A stretch of DNA of 22,435 nt from a virus, in the IMG/VR virus record IMGVR_UViG_3300030329_002163, positions 1 to 22,435 of that record; one strand, written 5' to 3'. This document shows, in pieces, positions 254 to 22,435 of the stretch. Every line of letters starts with the position of its first letter. The stretch's first letter is position 1. Position numbers and translations under genes: made by a program. Under the pieces are notes generated by a model that saw only the letters and a list, made by a program, of their open reading frames with translations, did not search any database and was not told the origin of the DNA.

Positions 254-2635
254 TTATGATCTATTCAAATCTCTACGATTACTGACTTTTTCTAGTTCAG
301 TAGCCTGAGATTGAGATAAATCTAGCTTATCAGCCGCTACAGCAGAAATAGCTCCCCCTGCTTGAGATTCTTGTGCTTCTTTATAAAATGACTGCAATCC
401 TCTAATTGATTCAGGTTCTAGGGCTAAATCAGTAGGCATGTCCATAAGTATGCCTAATTGCAATCTATGTTTGTAACTCGTCTTTCCTCCAGACTTTTCA
501 AGAGCGTCATAAACACTTGATTGCATTTCTGAGTAAAGAGTGGGGTAAACAAATCGTATTGCTTCTATACCTTCTCTGCTTATACTTGCACTATTTAGGT
601 CTTTTAAGACTGAAAGAGGGTCTTGAACTGCTTTTACATATTTCTTAAATTTATAAATTTCTTGATCAGAAATAGGATAAGATTTCTTTAAAAATGGATT
701 AACTTGTAAAGTTTTTCTAGGTAGTTTAGAGTCTAAAAATACAAAGGCTCTACCTGCTACCTGTTTGAGTTGTCCATATGTTTTAGGAGCACTAGACTGT
801 AAGTTAGCATCTAGCATCATTTTATTCATAAGAAAAGGATTGGCGTTAATTTTATCAAAATTATTAGCCATGTTTATAACAGCTTCCTGTTCATTTTTAG
901 GTTTCCCTAATACTAACTCTCCTTCAGTTTTTCTAGACAAAGGATTATTAGTTAAAACAGCAGCAGAAATAGCAGGGTATTTGTCAAATTTTGTTCTTTT
1001 AAAAAAATTATTAACTAACCTAGATACCTTACTAGAGACCTTAGTATTACTACGTTCTATATCAGCTAAGACCATCATTTTATTTTTAAGGTCTGATTGA
1101 GCAAATGCAGAAGTCATTCCTGCTAACCCACTTACACTTTTTATAGGAGCTAGACCCAGAGTAAAAGCACCAAAACCAAAAAATACGTCTCTTAACTTTG
1201 AAAAAACACTTTTATCTGGAGCTGATCTATTAAATTGATTAACAAATGTTGCTAAGCTATTGTAATCTAATAACTCTTTCTGAAGTTTCTCACCTAGAGG
1301 ACTTCTAACTCTAGCAGCTAAATCTACTAATTCTTCTCTAAACCCTCTTCCTAAAGCTCTATTAATGTCTTGAACTATAGTAGGGTCTCCTAGTTTATCG
1401 TATTTACCTAATTTATGATATTCTACTTTTATTTTTTGTAGATCATCAGCAGTATAACGAACATCGTCTAGTAAATCACTTGTAAGATTGTCAAGTTCTT
1501 TGTCTATTAAAGCTACTTTTTTTCTTGCGTCATCACTAAGAGGTTTACCTGTTTTTGGGTTTAAAAACTTAGGTCTTAGTTTTTCCAACTCATCTACTTG
1601 TCTTTGAGCTACTTGATTAAGCTTAGGAAATATGTTAGGGTCGGTAATCTCTTCATCTATAGCCTTAACGGTTTTTCCTATATTCTTTCCTATTTTTTTT
1701 AAATAAGACCTAGAACTATTTAATAAATGAGAATTAGAAGCTAGAGAATAACCAACGCCTCCATCTTTCATAGCCTTAGATAAAACTTCGGGAATGTTTT
1801 GAGCCATTTTAGGTTGATCTACCATTAATCTTTCTATTTGATCGTCTGCAAAACCACCAAGTTTCATAGAATTATAAACAGGGTTTGTCATGTTTTGCTT
1901 AAAATTATCTATCTTCTCAACACCTACTCCTACTATTTTACTTCCTTTTATCTTAGGAACAACTATAGAAACTGTTTGTCCTATGCCTCCTAAAGAACCA
2001 CCGACAAGACCACCAAATAAAGCACCCCTACCTGCATAAGCAGCTAGATTTTCTGCATTAAATTCCGCATTACCTAGGGCATTTTCTTCTATAAGTTCAC
2101 CAACTCCGTAAAAAGTACCTTCTACTGCTGAACCTGCACCTTTAGCAACACTCTTTCTTAAAACTTCTCTAGCAAAGTTTTTCTTTCCAGTGTCTTTGAT
2201 TAATTTTTTAAGACCTGAAGCAGTTAGTTTTTCTACTGCTGCTGCGCCTTTAGCTGCTGTAGCTATTCCTTTTCCTGCTGCTCCTGCACCTTTTGCAAGT
2301 AAAGAACTACCTCCAGAAAATAAAGCTGGACCAGCAATACCAACAATTTCTCCTGCTAAAGCTGCGCTCTTGTTTCTTTTTCTTCTTTCTCTAAGAGCTT
2401 CTTTAAAATCATCACCAAGAGCTGCATAAGCTTGGTCACTAAGACCAAACGTAGCTGAAGATACAGCAGACTCTACAAAGGTTCTTATCCCAGAGTCTCC
2501 ATATTTTTCAGTTAATTCTTCCTGTCTATCTAGAAGCTGCATATCCTCTTCAGAAAAAGGACCTTCTACAGGAGTAGTTTCTTCCTTTTTCACACTAAGA
2601 CTTTCTAGATATTTTTTATCTTTTTCTGTTAACAT
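254..2635 (-). CDS. Internal virion / DNA ejection protein (793 aa)
   Basis: A large protein with no enzymatic motif that I can see. Residues about 50-66 read RTFVESAVSSATFGLSD, and residues 92-135 form a Gly/Ala-rich hydrophobic stretch (AALAGEIVGIAGPALFSGG and following). Further Gly-rich hydrophobic patches lie at about 198-228 and 483-512; the rest is helical and charged. The TFGLSD plus GE-x-x-G pattern is one I associate with internal or ejection proteins of short-tailed phages, and the amphipathic Gly/Ala patches would suit insertion into a membrane during DNA delivery. ATG start at 2635 with AGGTG upstream, 7 bases after the preceding stop. It closes the block of three large virion genes, as internal core proteins do in T7-like genomes. 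The role is inferred from position and composition; a structural role is much surer than the exact function. Confidence 0.65.
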   Translation of the reverse strand: MLTEKDKKYLESLSVKKEETTPVEGPFSEEDMQLLDRQEELTEKYGDSGIRTFVESAVSSATFGLSDQAYAALGDDFKEALRERRKRNKSAALAGEIVGIAGPALFSGGSSLLAKGAGAAGKGIATAAKGAAAVEKLTASGLKKLIKDTGKKNFAREVLRKSVAKGAGSAVEGTFYGVGELIEENALGNAEFNAENLAAYAGRGALFGGLVGGSLGGIGQTVSIVVPKIKGSKIVGVGVEKIDNFKQNMTNPVYNSMKLGGFADDQIERLMVDQPKMAQNIPEVLSKAMKDGGVGYSLASNSHLLNSSRSYLKKIGKNIGKTVKAIDEEITDPNIFPKLNQVAQRQVDELEKLRPKFLNPKTGKPLSDDARKKVALIDKELDNLTSDLLDDVRYTADDLQKIKVEYHKLGKYDKLGDPTIVQDINRALGRGFREELVDLAARVRSPLGEKLQKELLDYNSLATFVNQFNRSAPDKSVFSKLRDVFFGFGAFTLGLAPIKSVSGLAGMTSAFAQSDLKNKMMVLADIERSNTKVSSKVSRLVNNFFKRTKFDKYPAISAAVLTNNPLSRKTEGELVLGKPKNEQEAVINMANNFDKINANPFLMNKMMLDANLQSSAPKTYGQLKQVAGRAFVFLDSKLPRKTLQVNPFLKKSYPISDQEIYKFKKYVKAVQDPLSVLKDLNSASISREGIEAIRFVYPTLYSEMQSSVYDALEKSGGKTSYKHRLQLGILMDMPTDLALEPESIRGLQSFYKEAQESQAGGAISAVAADKLDLSQSQATELEKVSNRRDLNRS

Positions 2636-2642
2636 AAATCAC

Positions 2643-5360
2643 CTAGACGGCTAAAGGTTCACTTGGGTCCCACCACTTGCCAGGTGTTCCACCTTTTTCT
2701 ACATGTTCTTTTTCTTGAAATATAAGTTGATCTACTACTTTTCTTCTATTAACAGGAACATTACTTAGGTTTCTTCTTTTAAGCATTTGAGCTATTCTTC
2801 GTTCATTTGGAGATACTGGTAGAGCAACTCCGTCTGATCTTAGTTTTTGCCTTACTCCGTAGTTAACTTTCATCATAAGATTTCTTATTTTAGCTATCTC
2901 TCTTTCATCAGTAGTAAAAAGACGATTAGGATCTCCAAGAATTTTCTTAGCTTGTTCTCTTTCTTGGTCAGTCATAACACCTGGACCAAAGAACTCAATC
3001 CTAAGATTACCAACTAACCTATCTCTTAGAGACTCAGCTTCAGCTCTGTCTTGAGAAAATAAAGCACCAAATGGATTAAAAGTACCCTGTTCTAAAAAAG
3101 AAACTTTATCCACATAACCTATTAAATCATTTAAACCGTCTATAGTCTGTTGAGCATTAGCTACATATTCTTTAACTTTATTAGCTCTAGAGACTCCACC
3201 CTTAACATAATAATTAAGACCGTCTCTACCTTTTATGACAGATTGTTCAATTTTCATTTTTGGTAAGTTAACTGAGATAATAGAAAGTTCTTTATCAGTT
3301 AAACCTCTTGTGTTTACAGCTTCTAAAAGCAATTGATTATAGTCTTTCTGAGCTAGTTTTTTAGCAGCTTTTTCACCTTTCTTTTGATATGATAAAGATA
3401 ACCTCTCTAAGGTGTTTCTCTTGTCTATTTCTTTTGTAGACCTAGCAAGTCTTCTGGCTAAAACAGCTACTTTAAAGTTTGCAGCAGCTAATTTCTTACC
3501 TTCTTCAGTTTGACCAAGCTTTTGAGCTTCTATGTCTTTTTTTACTGCATCATCTAGTCTTTTTATAAAAACATTAGGAGTACCATACTTAGAAGCACCA
3601 TAAGCTCCAGCAGCTAATCCAACCAAAGATACTATTTTATTAAATGTGCTTTGGTTCTTATAAAATCTATTAGGGTCTATAGTAGCAGCTTTCATCGCCT
3701 GAGCTACGGCTGCGTCCTCTGCCTCTCTTAGTTTTTTTTCATCTTGTAATTGTCTTATGTCTAAAAATTCTTTTTTAGTAAGTTTTCTTAAATTTTTACC
3801 AGGAGCAGCTTGAGTTGTAGTATCTTTAACAACTTTGTCTTCTTCCCATGTGCCAGAAGCTCCTCTAGGCTCTTTAGTAGGTTCTTTACCTAATCCTAAA
3901 GCTTCTCTCATCATAGGACCAGGAGGCGTTCTAGGATCACGACCACCTTGAGCTACCATGTCCTCTGGTTCAGGTCTGTCAAATTGTTTTATAAGAGAAC
4001 TTACTTCTTCTCTAGTAGTCTTACCATCAGATATAAGAGCTATTATTTGTTTTCTATCTTCATAAGTTTTCCCACCTTCTACATACTTTTTAACTACAGA
4101 CTTTACGTCTATTTCTTCTGTCTCAATTTTAGGTTCAGGTTGAGGAACAAAACCAGGTATTCCTGGGACTGTTGCAACTCCCTCTTGATACTCTGGACTT
4201 TTGATGTATTCAGGAGTAGATTCTATAAGATAGTCTCTCATCCAAGAATCGTCATATTCGTCTATAACTTCTTCATCGTTGCTTCTCATCCAAGAGTCTT
4301 CATATTCGTCTACGACTTCTCCACCGTTGTCGTATTTTTTAACTTCTCCACCTTCTGCTCCTGTCCAAAACTGGTCCTGCTCTGATTGATAATACTCTGG
4401 TTCACCTCCAGCATAAACACCGTAAGGAACTGATTGATCTACTGGTATTGTCTCTTCCAACTCTATGTCTTCTACTTCTATGTTTTGTTCAGGTTTTTTA
4501 ACCTCTTGTTTATCAGTACTAACATCAAATATTCTATCTCCAGGGTGATAATACTTTGGTTTTTCCCCAGGTAGACTTCCTGGTTTTTCTAAATCTTTAG
4601 CTGTATAACCATGTTTTTTCATCCAAGACTGCACCTTAGATTTATCTCTAGGAATAACAGTAGGGTCTTCTAGGTTATCTTTAAATTGTTTAGAAGGTTT
4701 AGAAGGTTTAGAAGGTTTAGACACAGGAGCAGAAAATTTTCCATATTTTCTAATAGTTTCTTTTTCATCTACTTGTAATAAACCATGTTTTTTAGCTAAA
4801 TCGTGATAAGCTGTCCCAGGAAGTAGGCTATATTGTTTTCTATAAGCTGGGGTAGCACTTCTTTTATAAACACTTCCACCCATTTTATTTCCCCATGGCT
4901 GAAAACCATTAGCTACATATAGGTGATAAGCTGCTTCCATATTTTTAGCAGGGTCTTTTAATTCTTCAAAATTATCTATTTTCATTTTAGTTTTTAAAAA
5001 AGGTAAATTAACTCCTCTGATTTGAAATAGACCATAACTGTGTTTTACAGGAGGAACAGGTTTAGAAGTGTCATAAGCTCTCCTACCATTTTTCTTAGTG
5101 TAAATTTTATACTTATCACCTTCAGCATCTGCATAGCCCTTGCTTTCTCTAATCATTATTTTCATGAACATGTCTTGCTCATCTTTAGAAAGTTTTCCCA
5201 AAGGACTATTTTTAAATACTTCTTTTAATTTATATTTTTTTAAGTTATTCCTTAAATTATAAATATTAGGTTTCATATCCTGAATCTCCTTCCAAGTCTT
5301 GCTGCTTTCGGCAATTGCCGTACTTCCTAATAGGAAAAAAATTAAAATTGCTTTGATCAT
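2643..5360 (-). CDS. Virion-associated lytic transglycosylase / internal virion protein (905 aa) with signal-peptide-like N-terminus
   Basis: Residues 1-17 (MIKAILIFFLLGSTAIA) look like a cleavable signal peptide with an A-x-A site. Residues about 55-160 resemble an SLT/lysozyme-like fold: candidate catalytic Glu72 in MIRESKG, the SYGLFQIRG motif at 108-116, and NMEAAYHLYVANGFQPWG at 140-157, which matches the conserved helix of lytic transglycosylases. Next come a KPS repeat (about 215-224), an acidic low-complexity region with two DEY-x-DSWMR copies (351-375) and GGEV motifs (337-348), then a charged helical C-terminal half with a small hydrophobic patch near 576-590. The domain would cut peptidoglycan glycan strands so that DNA and ejection proteins can cross the cell wall, as T7 gp16 does. 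ATG at 5360, 20 bases after the upstream stop, behind a weak GAGAG-type site. The hydrolase fold is likely; the meaning of the signal-like N-terminus is open. Confidence 0.75.
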   Translation of the reverse strand: MIKAILIFFLLGSTAIAESSKTWKEIQDMKPNIYNLRNNLKKYKLKEVFKNSPLGKLSKDEQDMFMKIMIRESKGYADAEGDKYKIYTKKNGRRAYDTSKPVPPVKHSYGLFQIRGVNLPFLKTKMKIDNFEELKDPAKNMEAAYHLYVANGFQPWGNKMGGSVYKRSATPAYRKQYSLLPGTAYHDLAKKHGLLQVDEKETIRKYGKFSAPVSKPSKPSKPSKQFKDNLEDPTVIPRDKSKVQSWMKKHGYTAKDLEKPGSLPGEKPKYYHPGDRIFDVSTDKQEVKKPEQNIEVEDIELEETIPVDQSVPYGVYAGGEPEYYQSEQDQFWTGAEGGEVKKYDNGGEVVDEYEDSWMRSNDEEVIDEYDDSWMRDYLIESTPEYIKSPEYQEGVATVPGIPGFVPQPEPKIETEEIDVKSVVKKYVEGGKTYEDRKQIIALISDGKTTREEVSSLIKQFDRPEPEDMVAQGGRDPRTPPGPMMREALGLGKEPTKEPRGASGTWEEDKVVKDTTTQAAPGKNLRKLTKKEFLDIRQLQDEKKLREAEDAAVAQAMKAATIDPNRFYKNQSTFNKIVSLVGLAAGAYGASKYGTPNVFIKRLDDAVKKDIEAQKLGQTEEGKKLAAANFKVAVLARRLARSTKEIDKRNTLERLSLSYQKKGEKAAKKLAQKDYNQLLLEAVNTRGLTDKELSIISVNLPKMKIEQSVIKGRDGLNYYVKGGVSRANKVKEYVANAQQTIDGLNDLIGYVDKVSFLEQGTFNPFGALFSQDRAEAESLRDRLVGNLRIEFFGPGVMTDQEREQAKKILGDPNRLFTTDEREIAKIRNLMMKVNYGVRQKLRSDGVALPVSPNERRIAQMLKRRNLSNVPVNRRKVVDQLIFQEKEHVEKGGTPGKWWDPSEPLAV
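4236..4320 (-). repeat. Pair of imperfect 37-base direct repeats in the transglycosylase gene
   Basis: Copies at 4236-4272 and 4284-4320 match at 33 of 37 positions by hand comparison. They encode the two DEY-x-DSWMR segments separated by a short acidic linker. They lie in the acidic low-complexity region downstream of the hydrolase domain and keep the frame, so this looks like an internal tandem duplication of about 48 bases. Confidence 0.75.
4691..4720 (-). repeat. 9-base tandem repeat encoding a KPS linker
   Basis: Three perfect copies of TAGAAGGTT (plus strand) at 4691-4717 continue into a partial fourth. They encode KPSKPSKPSK, a flexible, positively charged linker just after the transglycosylase domain. 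The copies are in frame and could change in number by slippage. Confidence 0.75.
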
Positions 5361-18742: not shown

Positions 18743-20224
18743 CTATTGTTCATCTATTATATTATCTAATTCTTGCATATCCTGCTCATATAATTTCTCT
18801 AACTCAAAGGCATATGGGTCCTTTTTGCGTTCCTCACATTCCCTAGCTTCTTTCATTTCTAACTCTTTCATGTAAGCGTCTGACCCTTCTTTCGGTTGGG
18901 CTTTTGGCTTTTCAGATAGATAATGACGACATTCTCTCCAAGCATAAAGGACAGCATCACAAATATCCGAGTGATAAGTGTCTGAAATCCTTGGTCTTTC
19001 TGGATTACGAATTTTCGAGTCCTTGTCCCATTGTACCAACATGCAATCCTCTTCAAATAAAGAACTCTTGAAGGCTTTAAATTTTTCAGTTCGTAAATCA
19101 TCGTTTAATAACTCAATAAACTCTACTTTTCGGGTCTTGTCAGCAGCCTCGATATTAAGACCATGCCTCATTCGAAGCTCCTCTTGGATCTTTTTTCCTA
19201 AGGCTCCTGCGTCCATGACCATTCGTATGGGGTTATACAAGTCCTTGTATTCATTTATAGCAGCCACTAATTGACTAATGTTTTGTTTGTTTTTAACATG
19301 TTCGTCCACCAAGTAGACTCGCTTATAGTGCGTATTGTAACCGATAACAGCGATAGCATCACTGTCATTGTAGCCAATATCAATACCAATAATATAGTGC
19401 CACTCCCCTTCAGTAGGGAGTTTATCAAAGATGTTTTTTGCTTTATTGAATTTAAATACGAGTGCATCTTTATCCTCCACCCATTTACCAAATGTTTCTC
19501 TTATATAAGATGGGTCTGACTCATCAATTCCTCTTATAACTCTTTCTTCTGTTAATATTTCCTCTAAATTTAACTGGGGAGGATTGTGCATATAGGGATT
19601 ATCAAAAGCTGTCCAGTGGTGTGCTTTCCAGTTTTTTGATTGAGAATACTCAAAAAATATTCCTGCTTTAACTGGACCTGGAGTTCCTGTTAAATATAAT
19701 TGTCCTCTTTTGTCCCTTAAGGCTGGGATGATGATGTCATTTATCAACTCCTTTAGATAGGACCGGAAGGATTGACACTCATCTATGTAACACTTCATTA
19801 GTTTCCATCCTCTAAACTTTTCTATCTCGGTTCTATCTTTGGCTCCTGCTATGTAAATTTTAGACTTGTTAGGAAACGCTATAGTTAATCTAACATTATC
19901 CATTTTACATTCTAGTTCATACTCTTCTATAATCTTAACCAAATCAGACCAAATAATAGCTCTAGCTTGTTGCTGAGTTATAGTAATGTAAAGCAGGTTG
20001 ACTTCATCACTTTTAAGAGCAGTATCTATCATGTCAGCAGCTATACCGACTGTTTTACCTGCTCTACGAGAACATACAGCATTTCTAAACCTGGAACCTG
20101 AGCCACGAAAAAAGTCAACCTGTTTCTCAAAACAAAAATCTTTAAAGATAAACTTAGGTTTCTCAGCTTTTGTCTTCCTTTTATGAAGCTCCGCTATCAG
20201 GGCTTCCCTGTTTACGTTTTGCAA
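18743..20224 (-). CDS. terL: Terminase large subunit (493 aa)
   Basis: The ATPase-nuclease that cuts concatemeric DNA and drives it into the procapsid. Walker A-like CSRRAGKT at 51-58 (ATP binding), Walker B at 145-150 with Asp148-Glu149, and the coupling motif TGTPG at 179-183. The RNase H-like nuclease domain has IGIDIGYND (Asp282), MVMDAGALG (Asp338) and HSDICDAVLYAW (Asp420/Asp423), the expected metal-binding acids. The gene has no upstream ATG: it starts with TTG at 20224-20222, supported by GAGGTG at 20237-20232 with a 7-base spacer. Its first 44 bases overlap the oxygenase gene. The C-terminal 50 residues are charged and may contact the portal. All key motifs look intact, so it should be active. 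Confidence 0.95.
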   Translation of the reverse strand: MQNVNREALIAELHKRKTKAEKPKFIFKDFCFEKQVDFFRGSGSRFRNAVCSRRAGKTVGIAADMIDTALKSDEVNLLYITITQQQARAIIWSDLVKIIEEYELECKMDNVRLTIAFPNKSKIYIAGAKDRTEIEKFRGWKLMKCYIDECQSFRSYLKELINDIIIPALRDKRGQLYLTGTPGPVKAGIFFEYSQSKNWKAHHWTAFDNPYMHNPPQLNLEEILTEERVIRGIDESDPSYIRETFGKWVEDKDALVFKFNKAKNIFDKLPTEGEWHYIIGIDIGYNDSDAIAVIGYNTHYKRVYLVDEHVKNKQNISQLVAAINEYKDLYNPIRMVMDAGALGKKIQEELRMRHGLNIEAADKTRKVEFIELLNDDLRTEKFKAFKSSLFEEDCMLVQWDKDSKIRNPERPRISDTYHSDICDAVLYAWRECRHYLSEKPKAQPKEGSDAYMKELEMKEARECEERKKDPYAFELEKLYEQDMQELDNIIDEQ

Positions 20225-21041
20225 ATTCTGACACCTCTTTTTTAGAAGTTAGAGTTTTTAAATATTCTTCAGTATTCTGGTCTGACTTCATTCTAAAAGA
20301 CTTATCAAACATTTTTCCGTTTTTAAGTACGGCATTCCAGTGAGAGTTAAAAGCTATAGACCTTCGTTCTCCTGAACCTTTAAATGGGTAAACTGTATGC
20401 AAGAGGTTAGATGGAAATGTTACCAACTTGCCTGGTTCAGGCATGAAGGATAGAGAACCTTTTTCCATTCCAGTTGGACAAGCTGTTTTGTAGATAAATT
20501 CAATCATTCCGTCTCTTTGGTGTTTATACTCTGGTAACTTTCCTACTTTTGATCTATCCGAAAAATCTGGAACTTTTAACCAGAGTACAGAGGATAGATC
20601 ACAATAAGTATGAAAGTGGACTGGGTTGTACTCATCTGCAAATTGACTAACTATCCATGCGTGGTCTATTTGAATTTCTAGCTGTTTCAGTTCATGACCG
20701 TCTGAAGTTAAAGCGTTCCATACGTAGTTGTAGAGCATACCTTGTAGATAATCAAAAGCTCCAATCTCTTTTAGTTGATCATTACTAATCCAGGGTTCTT
20801 CAGCAATTTGACCTACTAAGTTTTTGCCCCAGTCTACCCTATCTCTGTCTTCAAGAATTTCATCTGTCTTCTTTATCAAAGCTTGAGTTATTTCAGATGG
20901 CATGTGAAATAGACCTACGGATGGACCAAAAGGTTTTAGTAATCTGAAATCAGTGTTCTTAGCTAGACGCTCTAGGCGTTCTTTATTTGACTCGTTTGCT
21001 TTTGCTTCCTGTCTTGCTTTTTTTGCTTGTTTACCACTCAT
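20181..21041 (-). CDS. 2OG-Fe(II) oxygenase family protein (286 aa)
   Basis: Resembles phage 2-oxoglutarate/iron(II)-dependent dioxygenases. The double-stranded beta-helix motifs are YNPVHFHTYCDLSSVLWLKV (138-157), with candidate iron ligands His142 and His144, then KLVTFPSNLLHTVYPF (205-220) with the distal ligand His215, then ERRSIAFN (225-232), whose Arg227 should bind 2-oxoglutarate. This is the layout of the putative 2OG-FeII oxygenase family with H-x-H...FPS-x-x-x-H...R-x-S-x-x-FN. The usual H-x-D/E is H-x-H here. The first about 30 residues are Lys/Arg-rich and helical. Such enzymes hydroxylate protein or nucleic acid side chains; the substrate cannot be read from sequence. ATG at 21041 with AGGAG 5 bases upstream, directly after the 104-residue gene; its tail overlaps terL by 44 bases, so the two are probably co-translated. 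Confidence 0.82.
   Translation of the reverse strand: MSGKQAKKARQEAKANESNKERLERLAKNTDFRLLKPFGPSVGLFHMPSEITQALIKKTDEILEDRDRVDWGKNLVGQIAEEPWISNDQLKEIGAFDYLQGMLYNYVWNALTSDGHELKQLEIQIDHAWIVSQFADEYNPVHFHTYCDLSSVLWLKVPDFSDRSKVGKLPEYKHQRDGMIEFIYKTACPTGMEKGSLSFMPEPGKLVTFPSNLLHTVYPFKGSGERRSIAFNSHWNAVLKNGKMFDKSFRMKSDQNTEEYLKTLTSKKEVSEFAKRKQGSPDSGAS
20232..20237 (-). promoter_or_regulatory. Ribosome binding site supporting the TTG start of terL
   Basis: GAGGTG on the minus strand inside the end of the oxygenase gene, 7 bases before the TTG start. There is no alternative in-frame start before the conserved ATPase region, so this site decides the start. Confidence 0.7.
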
Positions 21042-21042
21042 G

Positions 21043-21357
21043 TTAGCTCCTATAAGCTGTACGTTTTATTTTGGGTTTTTTAATTACGCTTGGAGTACCA
21101 ACTATATCCCTTTCTTCCTTATCTTTAACTTCTTGCTCTAGTTTCATAGGAGACTTAAGATAGACACAAGATACGTTAGTTAAAGGAATAAGAACGTGGT
21201 CCCTATCTGATTTGATAGAGACTACATTTAAATTTTCAATCAATTCTAACTCTAATGGTTTTCGATTGTTAATTTGTCGAGAAGCAAAAAACGTCTCGTT
21301 GGTTTTTTCAAACATTACCGATTGGTAACATCTGATTGAATCTATTTTGTATTTCAT
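21043..21357 (-). CDS. Small beta-rich protein upstream of oxygenase (104 aa), unknown function
   Basis: The frame is open to an ATG at 21372, but I take the ATG at 21357. GGAGGAG (21370-21364) lies 6 bases before it, and the ATG shares one base with the stop of the protease gene (TAATG). The N-terminal 70 residues look like a small beta barrel: RCYQSVMFEK, TFFASRQINN, LELELIENLNVVSIKS, HVLIPLTNVSCVYL. The pattern (short strands, then V-x-IPLTNV-x-x-VYL) recalls SH3- or LSm-like barrels in phage proteins, but I cannot name a family. The C-terminal part is Lys/Glu-rich and likely disordered (EQEVKDKEERD ... KKPKIKRTAYRS). Its place before the oxygenase and terminase makes a packaging or DNA-binding role possible; it is one candidate for a missing small terminase, without direct support. 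Confidence 0.6.
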   Translation of the reverse strand: MKYKIDSIRCYQSVMFEKTNETFFASRQINNRKPLELELIENLNVVSIKSDRDHVLIPLTNVSCVYLKSPMKLEQEVKDKEERDIVGTPSVIKKPKIKRTAYRS

Positions 21358-22004
21358 TAATATCTCCTCCAAAAGGGTACGAATTTATATTTTATTTTTT
21401 TCACAACTAAGCTGAATGATTTTATTTCATCTATGATGTTAGCCTTAAGAGCTTCATTAGCGTCCCACCACTTATCATCTTTATAGATTTCAAAAAACTC
21501 TTTGGGGTCTACGCCCATTCTTTTTGATATTTCATCTAACACTAATTTATCAAAAAAGTCAAGAGCTTTAAACAATTTTTTATTATTTTCAGTTCTTTTA
21601 GGTCTACCATATCCTACCTGTACTAGGTGGTGCATGTAGGTAGAGTTAGAACTTCCTATTCTTTTGTCACAGTATTGTAGGATTATAAATCCCATAGAAT
21701 AGGCATTACGAACAAAACAATTAAACTCATAACCTAAACTTTTTAGGTATTTCATTTCTTCAATTATTTCTAACCCGATGTGAACTGAGCCTCCACCTGA
21801 GTTAATAACCATGTCAATTACTTTGTCTTTTCCGTTTACTCTTGCTGCGGTTTTGAAGTCTTTTAAGGTAGGGTCTATACTGTAGCCATTAATAGCTCCA
21901 ATAGAAACATCATACTTATTCTCTAATACTTCTTTTCTTTCGATTGATAGAAAGGTGCCTAAAAATAGCCCCCCCAACAAAGCTAGGGTCAGTAGTTTTT
22001 TCAT
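21357..22004 (-). CDS. Membrane-anchored or exported ClpP/SppA-like serine protease (215 aa)
   Basis: ClpP-fold peptidase. Visible elements: oxyanion-type loop MVINSGGGSVHIG (65-77, as in ClpP INSPGGSV), nucleophile Ser103 in RNAYSMGFIIL, His125 in STYMHHL, and Asp177 in DDKWWDANEA, which lines up with the catalytic Asp of ClpP (DRFLSAPEA). The C-terminal IIDEI also fits the family. The triad therefore appears complete. Residues 1-20 (MKKLLTLALLGGLFLGTFLS) form a signal peptide or membrane anchor, which ClpP lacks and SppA-like enzymes can have. There is no obvious lipobox. A hydrophobic/basic tail (about 198-215) ends the protein. ATG at 22004 overlaps the preceding stop (ATGA), with GGAGGAG 8 bases upstream. 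Candidate roles are proteolysis of envelope proteins or, less likely, prohead maturation, where a signal sequence would be unexpected. Confidence 0.72.
   Translation of the reverse strand: MKKLLTLALLGGLFLGTFLSIERKEVLENKYDVSIGAINGYSIDPTLKDFKTAARVNGKDKVIDMVINSGGGSVHIGLEIIEEMKYLKSLGYEFNCFVRNAYSMGFIILQYCDKRIGSSNSTYMHHLVQVGYGRPKRTENNKKLFKALDFFDKLVLDEISKRMGVDPKEFFEIYKDDKWWDANEALKANIIDEIKSFSLVVKKIKYKFVPFWRRY
21364..21370 (-). promoter_or_regulatory. Ribosome binding site that fixes the start of the 104-aa gene
   Basis: GGAGGAG on the minus strand, with a 6-base spacer to the ATG at 21357. It overlaps the codons that would encode the first residues of the longer reading, which makes the upstream ATG at 21372 unlikely. 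Confidence 0.75.
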
Positions 22005-22291
22005 TCGTCTGTCTCCTCCGATTCTGGTTTTCTTGCGATCAACTTAGTGTCGTCGCCGTATTGTTCTAATAGAGCCTGAATTGACTCTAGCTTGTCCTTT
22101 GTTTGTAGTTTTAATTGTCTTATATCCCATCTAAAATGTCCTGAGTCTATCAGCTTTAGACCGTTACGTTCTCTATGGGAGTTACGTTTTGCTATACGGT
22201 CTACTTTTTTGAATACTTCATCTATTAATTCTATACTAATTTCCATCATATTGCAAGCTACTTCATGACTGCGATTTTTAAAAGATTTCAT
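22001..22291 (-). CDS. Small charged helical protein between two ClpP-like genes (96 aa)
   Basis: Not recognised. It is rich in Lys, Arg, Glu and Asp and predominantly helical: NMMEISIELIDEVFKKVDRI (14-33) is an amphipathic helix, and a second helix around QLKLQTKDKLESIQALLEQY (59-78) could pair with it. The C-terminal tail KPESEETDE is acidic. ATG at 22291 with GGAG 6 bases upstream. Its start overlaps the preceding ClpP-like gene by 14 bases and its stop overlaps the next by 4, so all three are probably translated in a coupled set. A partner or regulator of the proteases is possible from position only. Confidence 0.6.
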   Translation of the reverse strand: MKSFKNRSHEVACNMMEISIELIDEVFKKVDRIAKRNSHRERNGLKLIDSGHFRWDIRQLKLQTKDKLESIQALLEQYGDDTKLIARKPESEETDE

Positions 22292-22435
22292 CTATAACTC
22301 CATACTCTAAGCATTCATCTGGAGTCAAGTAAAAGTTTTTCTTGTAGGTCTTATCGTACCAAAAGTCTGCATCCTTGTTACTCAACTCTGCCATCCAAGA
22401 ACACCATTGGCGTTCCTGTTTTTCAACTTGATCTA
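22278..22435 (-). CDS. C-terminus of a second ClpP-like protein (cut by window edge)
   Basis: The last 51 codons of a gene entering from the right. The ending KKNFYLTPDECLEYGVIDEI matches the C-terminal signature of ClpP and phage ClpP-like proteases (x-F-L-S/T-x-x-E-A-x-EYG-x-x-D-x-I). In ClpP the catalytic Asp precedes this as D-R-F-L-S-A-P-E-A; here the aligned residue is Asn (NFYLTPDEC), so the triad may be altered, or another nearby acid may serve. Ser and His motifs lie outside the window. Stop TAA at 22280-22278. It is followed directly by the 96-residue protein and the membrane-anchored protease, so two ClpP-fold genes sit side by side. It could be a prohead protease subunit or a host-ClpP-like partner. 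Confidence 0.6.
   Translation of the reverse strand, partial: DQVEKQERQWCSWMAELSNKDADFWYDKTYKKNFYLTPDECLEYGVIDEIF

Follow-up and report, generated by a model that had tools for sequence, protein, structure and literature searches.

Two ClpP-fold proteins, designated A and B, are encoded on the minus strand at the right-hand end of IMG/VR record IMGVR_UViG_3300030329_002163, and they are best explained as separate enzymes of different compartments rather than as partners in one ring (we estimate a probability of about 0.6 for this reading as a whole). The analyzed stretch of DNA (hereafter the window) is the complete record, of 22,435 bases. Protein A, which has the ClpP fold and a Ser-His-Asn triad, would reside in the cytoplasm and act in capsid maturation or in another processing step that involves no docking of a Clp ATPase. 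In protein B, the N-terminal segment would serve as an inner-membrane anchor and leave the ClpP domain on the periplasmic side, where B may cleave proteins or peptides of the envelope independently of an ATPase.

Gene order in the window

A is cut by the contig end, and the window retains its C-terminal 51 codons plus stop (22278–22433, minus strand); the frame reads ...TYKKNFYLTPDECLEYGVIDEIF*, with the stop at 22278–22280. The next gene on this strand (22001–22291) encodes a 96-aa protein with no significant family match, and is followed by the gene of B (21357–22004; 215 aa). The start of B is supported by (i) a GGAGGAGA site, (ii) an ATGA overlap and (iii) the lack of other start codons in codons 10–65. 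Continuing from B on the minus strand are genes for a 109-aa protein, a 2OG-Fe(II) oxygenase, the large terminase, a 76-aa protein and the portal; next come a gene for a probable scaffold protein and the genes for capsid and tail, with matches of SU10/P22 type. The oxygenase gene (20181–21041, minus strand) separates the ClpP pair from the terminase.

When the terminase was compared with annotated phages, the sole matches were the Pelagibacter phages Skadi (26% identity), so this collection contains no close isolate. No ClpP is named in the annotated stretch of Skadi, which includes one “putative protease” feature only. Elsewhere in the window, a 905-aa protein (2643–5360, minus strand) has a signal-peptide-like start (MIKAILIFFLLGSTAIA) and weakly matches the lysozyme-like family SLT_3 (E 0.002, under the cut-off).

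Protein A has a fixed Ser-His-Asn triad

A ClpP-like C-terminus had been predicted at the right edge of the window. The frame and the PF00574 match bear this out: the fragment alone gave E 1.8e-4, under the curated cut-off, and a complete copy from a related locus (L014, 187 aa) gave E 1.8e-25 and 90.3 bits, above the curated cut-off of 20.2. In the complete relatives of A (187 aa), Ser and His occupy the ClpP positions, and Asn replaces Asp in 26/26 sequences aligned to E. coli ClpP (the E. coli sequence in our alignments served residue mapping only). A thus departs at the third place from the Ser-His-Asp triad of ClpP/S14. The Asn noted in the original prediction is encoded in the window by an AAC codon (22335–22337, minus strand), and it recurs in all 36 distinct A ORFs; since it is invariant, it represents a fixed feature rather than decay. 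Median pairwise dN/dS was 0.057 for A and 0.069 for B, indicating purifying selection on both genes. This value for A, together with the constancy of Asn, ruled out that A is a decaying gene.

The Ser-His-Asn triad is shared with Listeria monocytogenes ClpP1 (Asn172), as is a reduced N-terminus: A is devoid of the ClpP N-terminal segment that precedes the first helix. On its own, ClpP1 forms mostly inactive heptamers, and within the ClpP1/2 heterocomplex it is aligned in an active conformation (PMC5361862). For this reason the label “inactive” cannot be read from the sequence of A, which does not by itself establish loss of activity. ClpP1 differs from A in being a cellular protein that works in the ClpP1/ClpP2 heterocomplex with ClpX, whereas A has no ATPase cleft and its neighbor B looks exported. 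Only 2 of 8 ATPase-loop cleft positions are hydrophobic in A, compared to 8/8 in E. coli ClpP. Most residues of the ATPase-docking cleft are therefore replaced, and similar losses are common among phage ClpP-like proteins.

It is very unlikely that A is incorporated into the ClpP rings of the host and changes proteolysis there, with B unrelated to it. The predicted cytoplasmic location of A would suit such a role, as would its resemblance in the triad to ClpP1, which acts through hetero-oligomers. However, A is far from cellular ATP-dependent ClpP (TIGR00493, 58.6 bits; equivalog cut-off 308.6), and most of the ATPase-docking residues are missing. The N-terminus of the A sequences examined has a 17-residue Kyte-Doolittle (KD) mean of about 0.2, and contains no hydrophobic segment. 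The structure model of A has a mean pLDDT of 61.7, a quality insufficient for fold comparison.

Protein B has a Ser-His-Asp triad, a hydrophobic N-terminus and a cysteine pair

Beyond the 96-codon gene, a second ClpP/SppA-like protein had been predicted. The ClpP part of this assignment stands, as B scored 49 bits with PF00574 (curated cut-off 20.2), and its model (mean pLDDT 80.7) matched solved ClpPs in a Foldseek search with E 4e-12. The SppA part does not: membership of B in SppA/S49 was rejected at 15.4 bits with PF01343 (cut-off 24.9). SppA is a membrane-anchored, periplasm-facing protein of ClpP-like fold. Both the anchor and the periplasmic orientation are proposed for B as well, which differs from SppA in its PF01343 score and in its ClpP-type Ser-His-Asp triad. 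B also scored below the cut-off of TIGR00493 (32.7 bits, compared to 308.6), and 5/8 of its ATPase-loop cleft positions are hydrophobic.

Alignment of B sequences revealed invariant Ser103 (21696–21698, minus strand, as for all codons of B given here), His126 (21627–21629) and Asp177 (21474–21476), which form the predicted Ser-His-Asp triad. Ser103 and Asp177 had been named originally together with His125. Both histidines are invariant, but it is His126 that aligns with His122 of E. coli ClpP; Asp177 aligns with E. coli Asp171. Two further invariant residues, Cys96 (21717–21719; Ser-7) and Cys112 (21669–21671; Ser+9), lie on either side of Ser103, and the pair is present in 39/39 distinct B sequences. 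A Cys96-Cys112 disulfide may stabilize the protein.

Residues 1–20 of B (21945–22004) constitute a putative signal or signal-anchor segment. As originally proposed, the N-terminus is hydrophobic, and this holds for all 31 aligned members (17-residue KD mean 1.9–2.7). In the model, residues 2–18 are a helix preceding the core, and the segment is therefore probably not buried in the fold. In the B proteins of L052, L054 and L055, the charge pattern around the helix is ambiguous, and an outward C-terminus is not clearly predicted.

Phage ClpP-fold proteins are usually labeled as head maturation proteases, and this is also the best PHROG of both A and B (phrog_94). It is improbable, in our estimate, that both are capsid or prohead proteases, the hydrophobic N-terminus of B serving to bind the prohead or being cleaved, with no export. 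This explanation would agree with the PHROG assignment, the shared ClpP (S14) fold and the gene order, the terminase, portal, scaffold and capsid genes standing immediately downstream of A and B. However, both proteins fall below the 120-bit cut-off of NF045542, the NCBIfam model of ClpP-related head maturation proteases (A, 81.6 bits; B, 45.2 bits), and they differ from this family in the Asn of A and in the signal segment and Cys pair of B. The association of signal and Cys pair described below would also be left unexplained.

Recurrence of the A-B gene pair

The search for the same pair in related phages was successful, and its recurrence exceeds chance: it is present in 48 fetched loci from a group of uncultured phages, which do not equal 48 genomes because several are on shared contigs. 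B follows A in every A/B-family locus of sufficient length. The only locus of this family with A and without B, L038, stops 204 bases past A. The distance from the end of A to the start of B is 258–288 bases in A/B-family loci, and about 1.3 kb where a FabF-like gene replaces the 96-aa gene.

The latter arrangement characterizes one clade (L055, positions 2544–3794; L052; L054; L087), in which the replacing gene encodes a FabF-like beta-ketoacyl-ACP synthase of 410–424 aa; the L055 protein scored 458.6 bits with TIGR03150. A GNAT-like acetyltransferase gene is located directly upstream of A in the A/B family (L014, 4728–5186).

A and B are of separate ancestry

In phylogenetic analysis, forcing A and B into one clade lowered the log-likelihood by about 20 units (p-AU 0.026). 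In a second tree, for which cysteines were masked and three long branches omitted, the decrease was about 18 units (p-AU 0.023); long branches limit both trees. For either tree, the AU test thus rejected a recent tandem duplication of one ClpP. A group comprising B and other exported proteins was not rejected (p 0.75; 0.31 with cysteines masked).

Each type was also found without the other. Locus L091 encodes, near a terminase gene, a relative of A (52–57% identical, also with Asn) that has no B beside it; the same contig also encodes a ClpP of the lipoprotein type, in the vicinity of an SLT gene. In L225, an exported ClpP is encoded upstream of a GNAT-like gene (4542–4949) and the terminase gene, with no A within the 8.2 kb.

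These results bear on the two options offered in the original prediction: (i) a mixed ring at the membrane or (ii) two enzymes at different sites. In the former case A and B would be a hetero-oligomeric ClpP-type protease, in which B activates the Asn-bearing A (as in Listeria ClpP2/ClpP1) and anchors the barrel on the cytoplasmic side. The constant order of the two genes is in line with such a complex, as are the triad and shortened N-terminus that A has in common with Listeria ClpP1. However, since A and B are not sisters and each type exists without the other, the mixed ring is disfavored; it also requires a cytoplasmic B domain, against which the export-linked cysteine pattern speaks. We consider it unlikely. 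The second option, two enzymes at different sites, is better supported, because B has a hydrophobic N-terminus in all aligned members and an invariant Cys pair that accompanies export signals in other phage ClpP-like proteins.

Export signals and cysteine pairs in other phage ClpP-like proteins

All ClpP-like ORFs of these loci and of the others fetched were classified by a hydropathy rule for the signal and by the two cysteine positions. In 123 phage ClpP-like ORFs outside A/B, the third triad position was occupied by Glu (70), Asp (50), Asn (1; L246) or Lys (1; L175), with one gap. Six of the 123 have the Cys pair, and each of these six also carries an N-terminal signal; the pair is absent from all 116 ORFs classified as signal-less (including the fragment L131). 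The sole exception to the association was L243 (3923–4780), with a clear N-terminal signal and no Cys pair. The Fisher p of 1.6e-9 overstates this association because (i) related ORFs are not independent, (ii) the hydropathy threshold was chosen after the data had been seen, (iii) the idea of a Cys pair arose from B, L100 and L098 themselves, and (iv) L183 and L184 are L100 homologs found by an L100-seeded query. L175 (from a whole-record search) and L225 are more independent additions.

Like B, these six proteins (L098, L100, L175, L183, L184 and L225) combine a ClpP match, an N-terminal signal and cysteines at Ser-7/-8 and Ser+9, and B, with the N-terminus and Cys pair conserved as described above, falls within the proposed grouping of exported phage ClpPs with a Cys pair. 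They differ from B in belonging to other phages, in having Glu (Lys in L175) for Asp, and in their lipobox motifs (L098, L175) or cleavage-type signals assigned by eye (L100, L183, L184, L225). In addition, three are encoded beside SLT transglycosylase genes.

Such genes, confirmed by Pfam in these three cases, lie within 2 kb of 3/7 signal-bearing ORFs, compared to 0/116 others (p 1e-4). The cases are not independent, L100 and L184 being related, and SLT genes near the 116 may be missed, since the SLT motif was formulated once these three proteins had been inspected. We therefore treat this neighborhood as a lead. No SLT gene was found near B in the lineage of the window, and an envelope or lysis role of B would rest on the gene neighborhood of other phages. 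That B helps to breach the envelope is thus a tentative suggestion. Equally speculative is the wider proposal that a ClpP-fold protease, exported, disulfide-bonded and working without an ATPase, serves phages with Gram-negative hosts in degrading or remodeling the envelope, and that it is encoded in some lineages beside a lytic transglycosylase and paired in that of the window with a cytoplasmic Ser-His-Asn ClpP.

The scattered set of signal-bearing, Cys-paired proteins suggests a second use of the ClpP fold outside the cytoplasm, where an ATP-driven unfoldase is absent. Should B act in the envelope, the means by which phages are known to breach Gram-negative cells would be extended by a protease. 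In A, the constancy of Asn provides a natural test of Ser-His-Asn triad function in a lineage where this residue is the rule.

No description of an exported phage ClpP was found in the open full-text literature as judged by the titles and abstracts listed, which leaves its absence unproven. A search of genome contigs yielded a single match, L173, without signal or Cys pair. Among annotated phages, no exported relatives of the L175 protein were found, and most of the matches listed for L098 and L100 are capsid or head maturation proteases.

Two further arrangements were observed. In the phage contig L061, which also bears a clamp-loader-like gene, two ClpP-like genes (1922–2518 and 4326–4865) are about 1.8 kb apart, and both have, by eye, Asp at the third triad position. 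The record of L014 (G001) encodes two small proteins (23094–23396 and 23478–23813, minus strand) that resemble exported proteins on visual inspection; one of them has a lipobox-like SLSSC motif.
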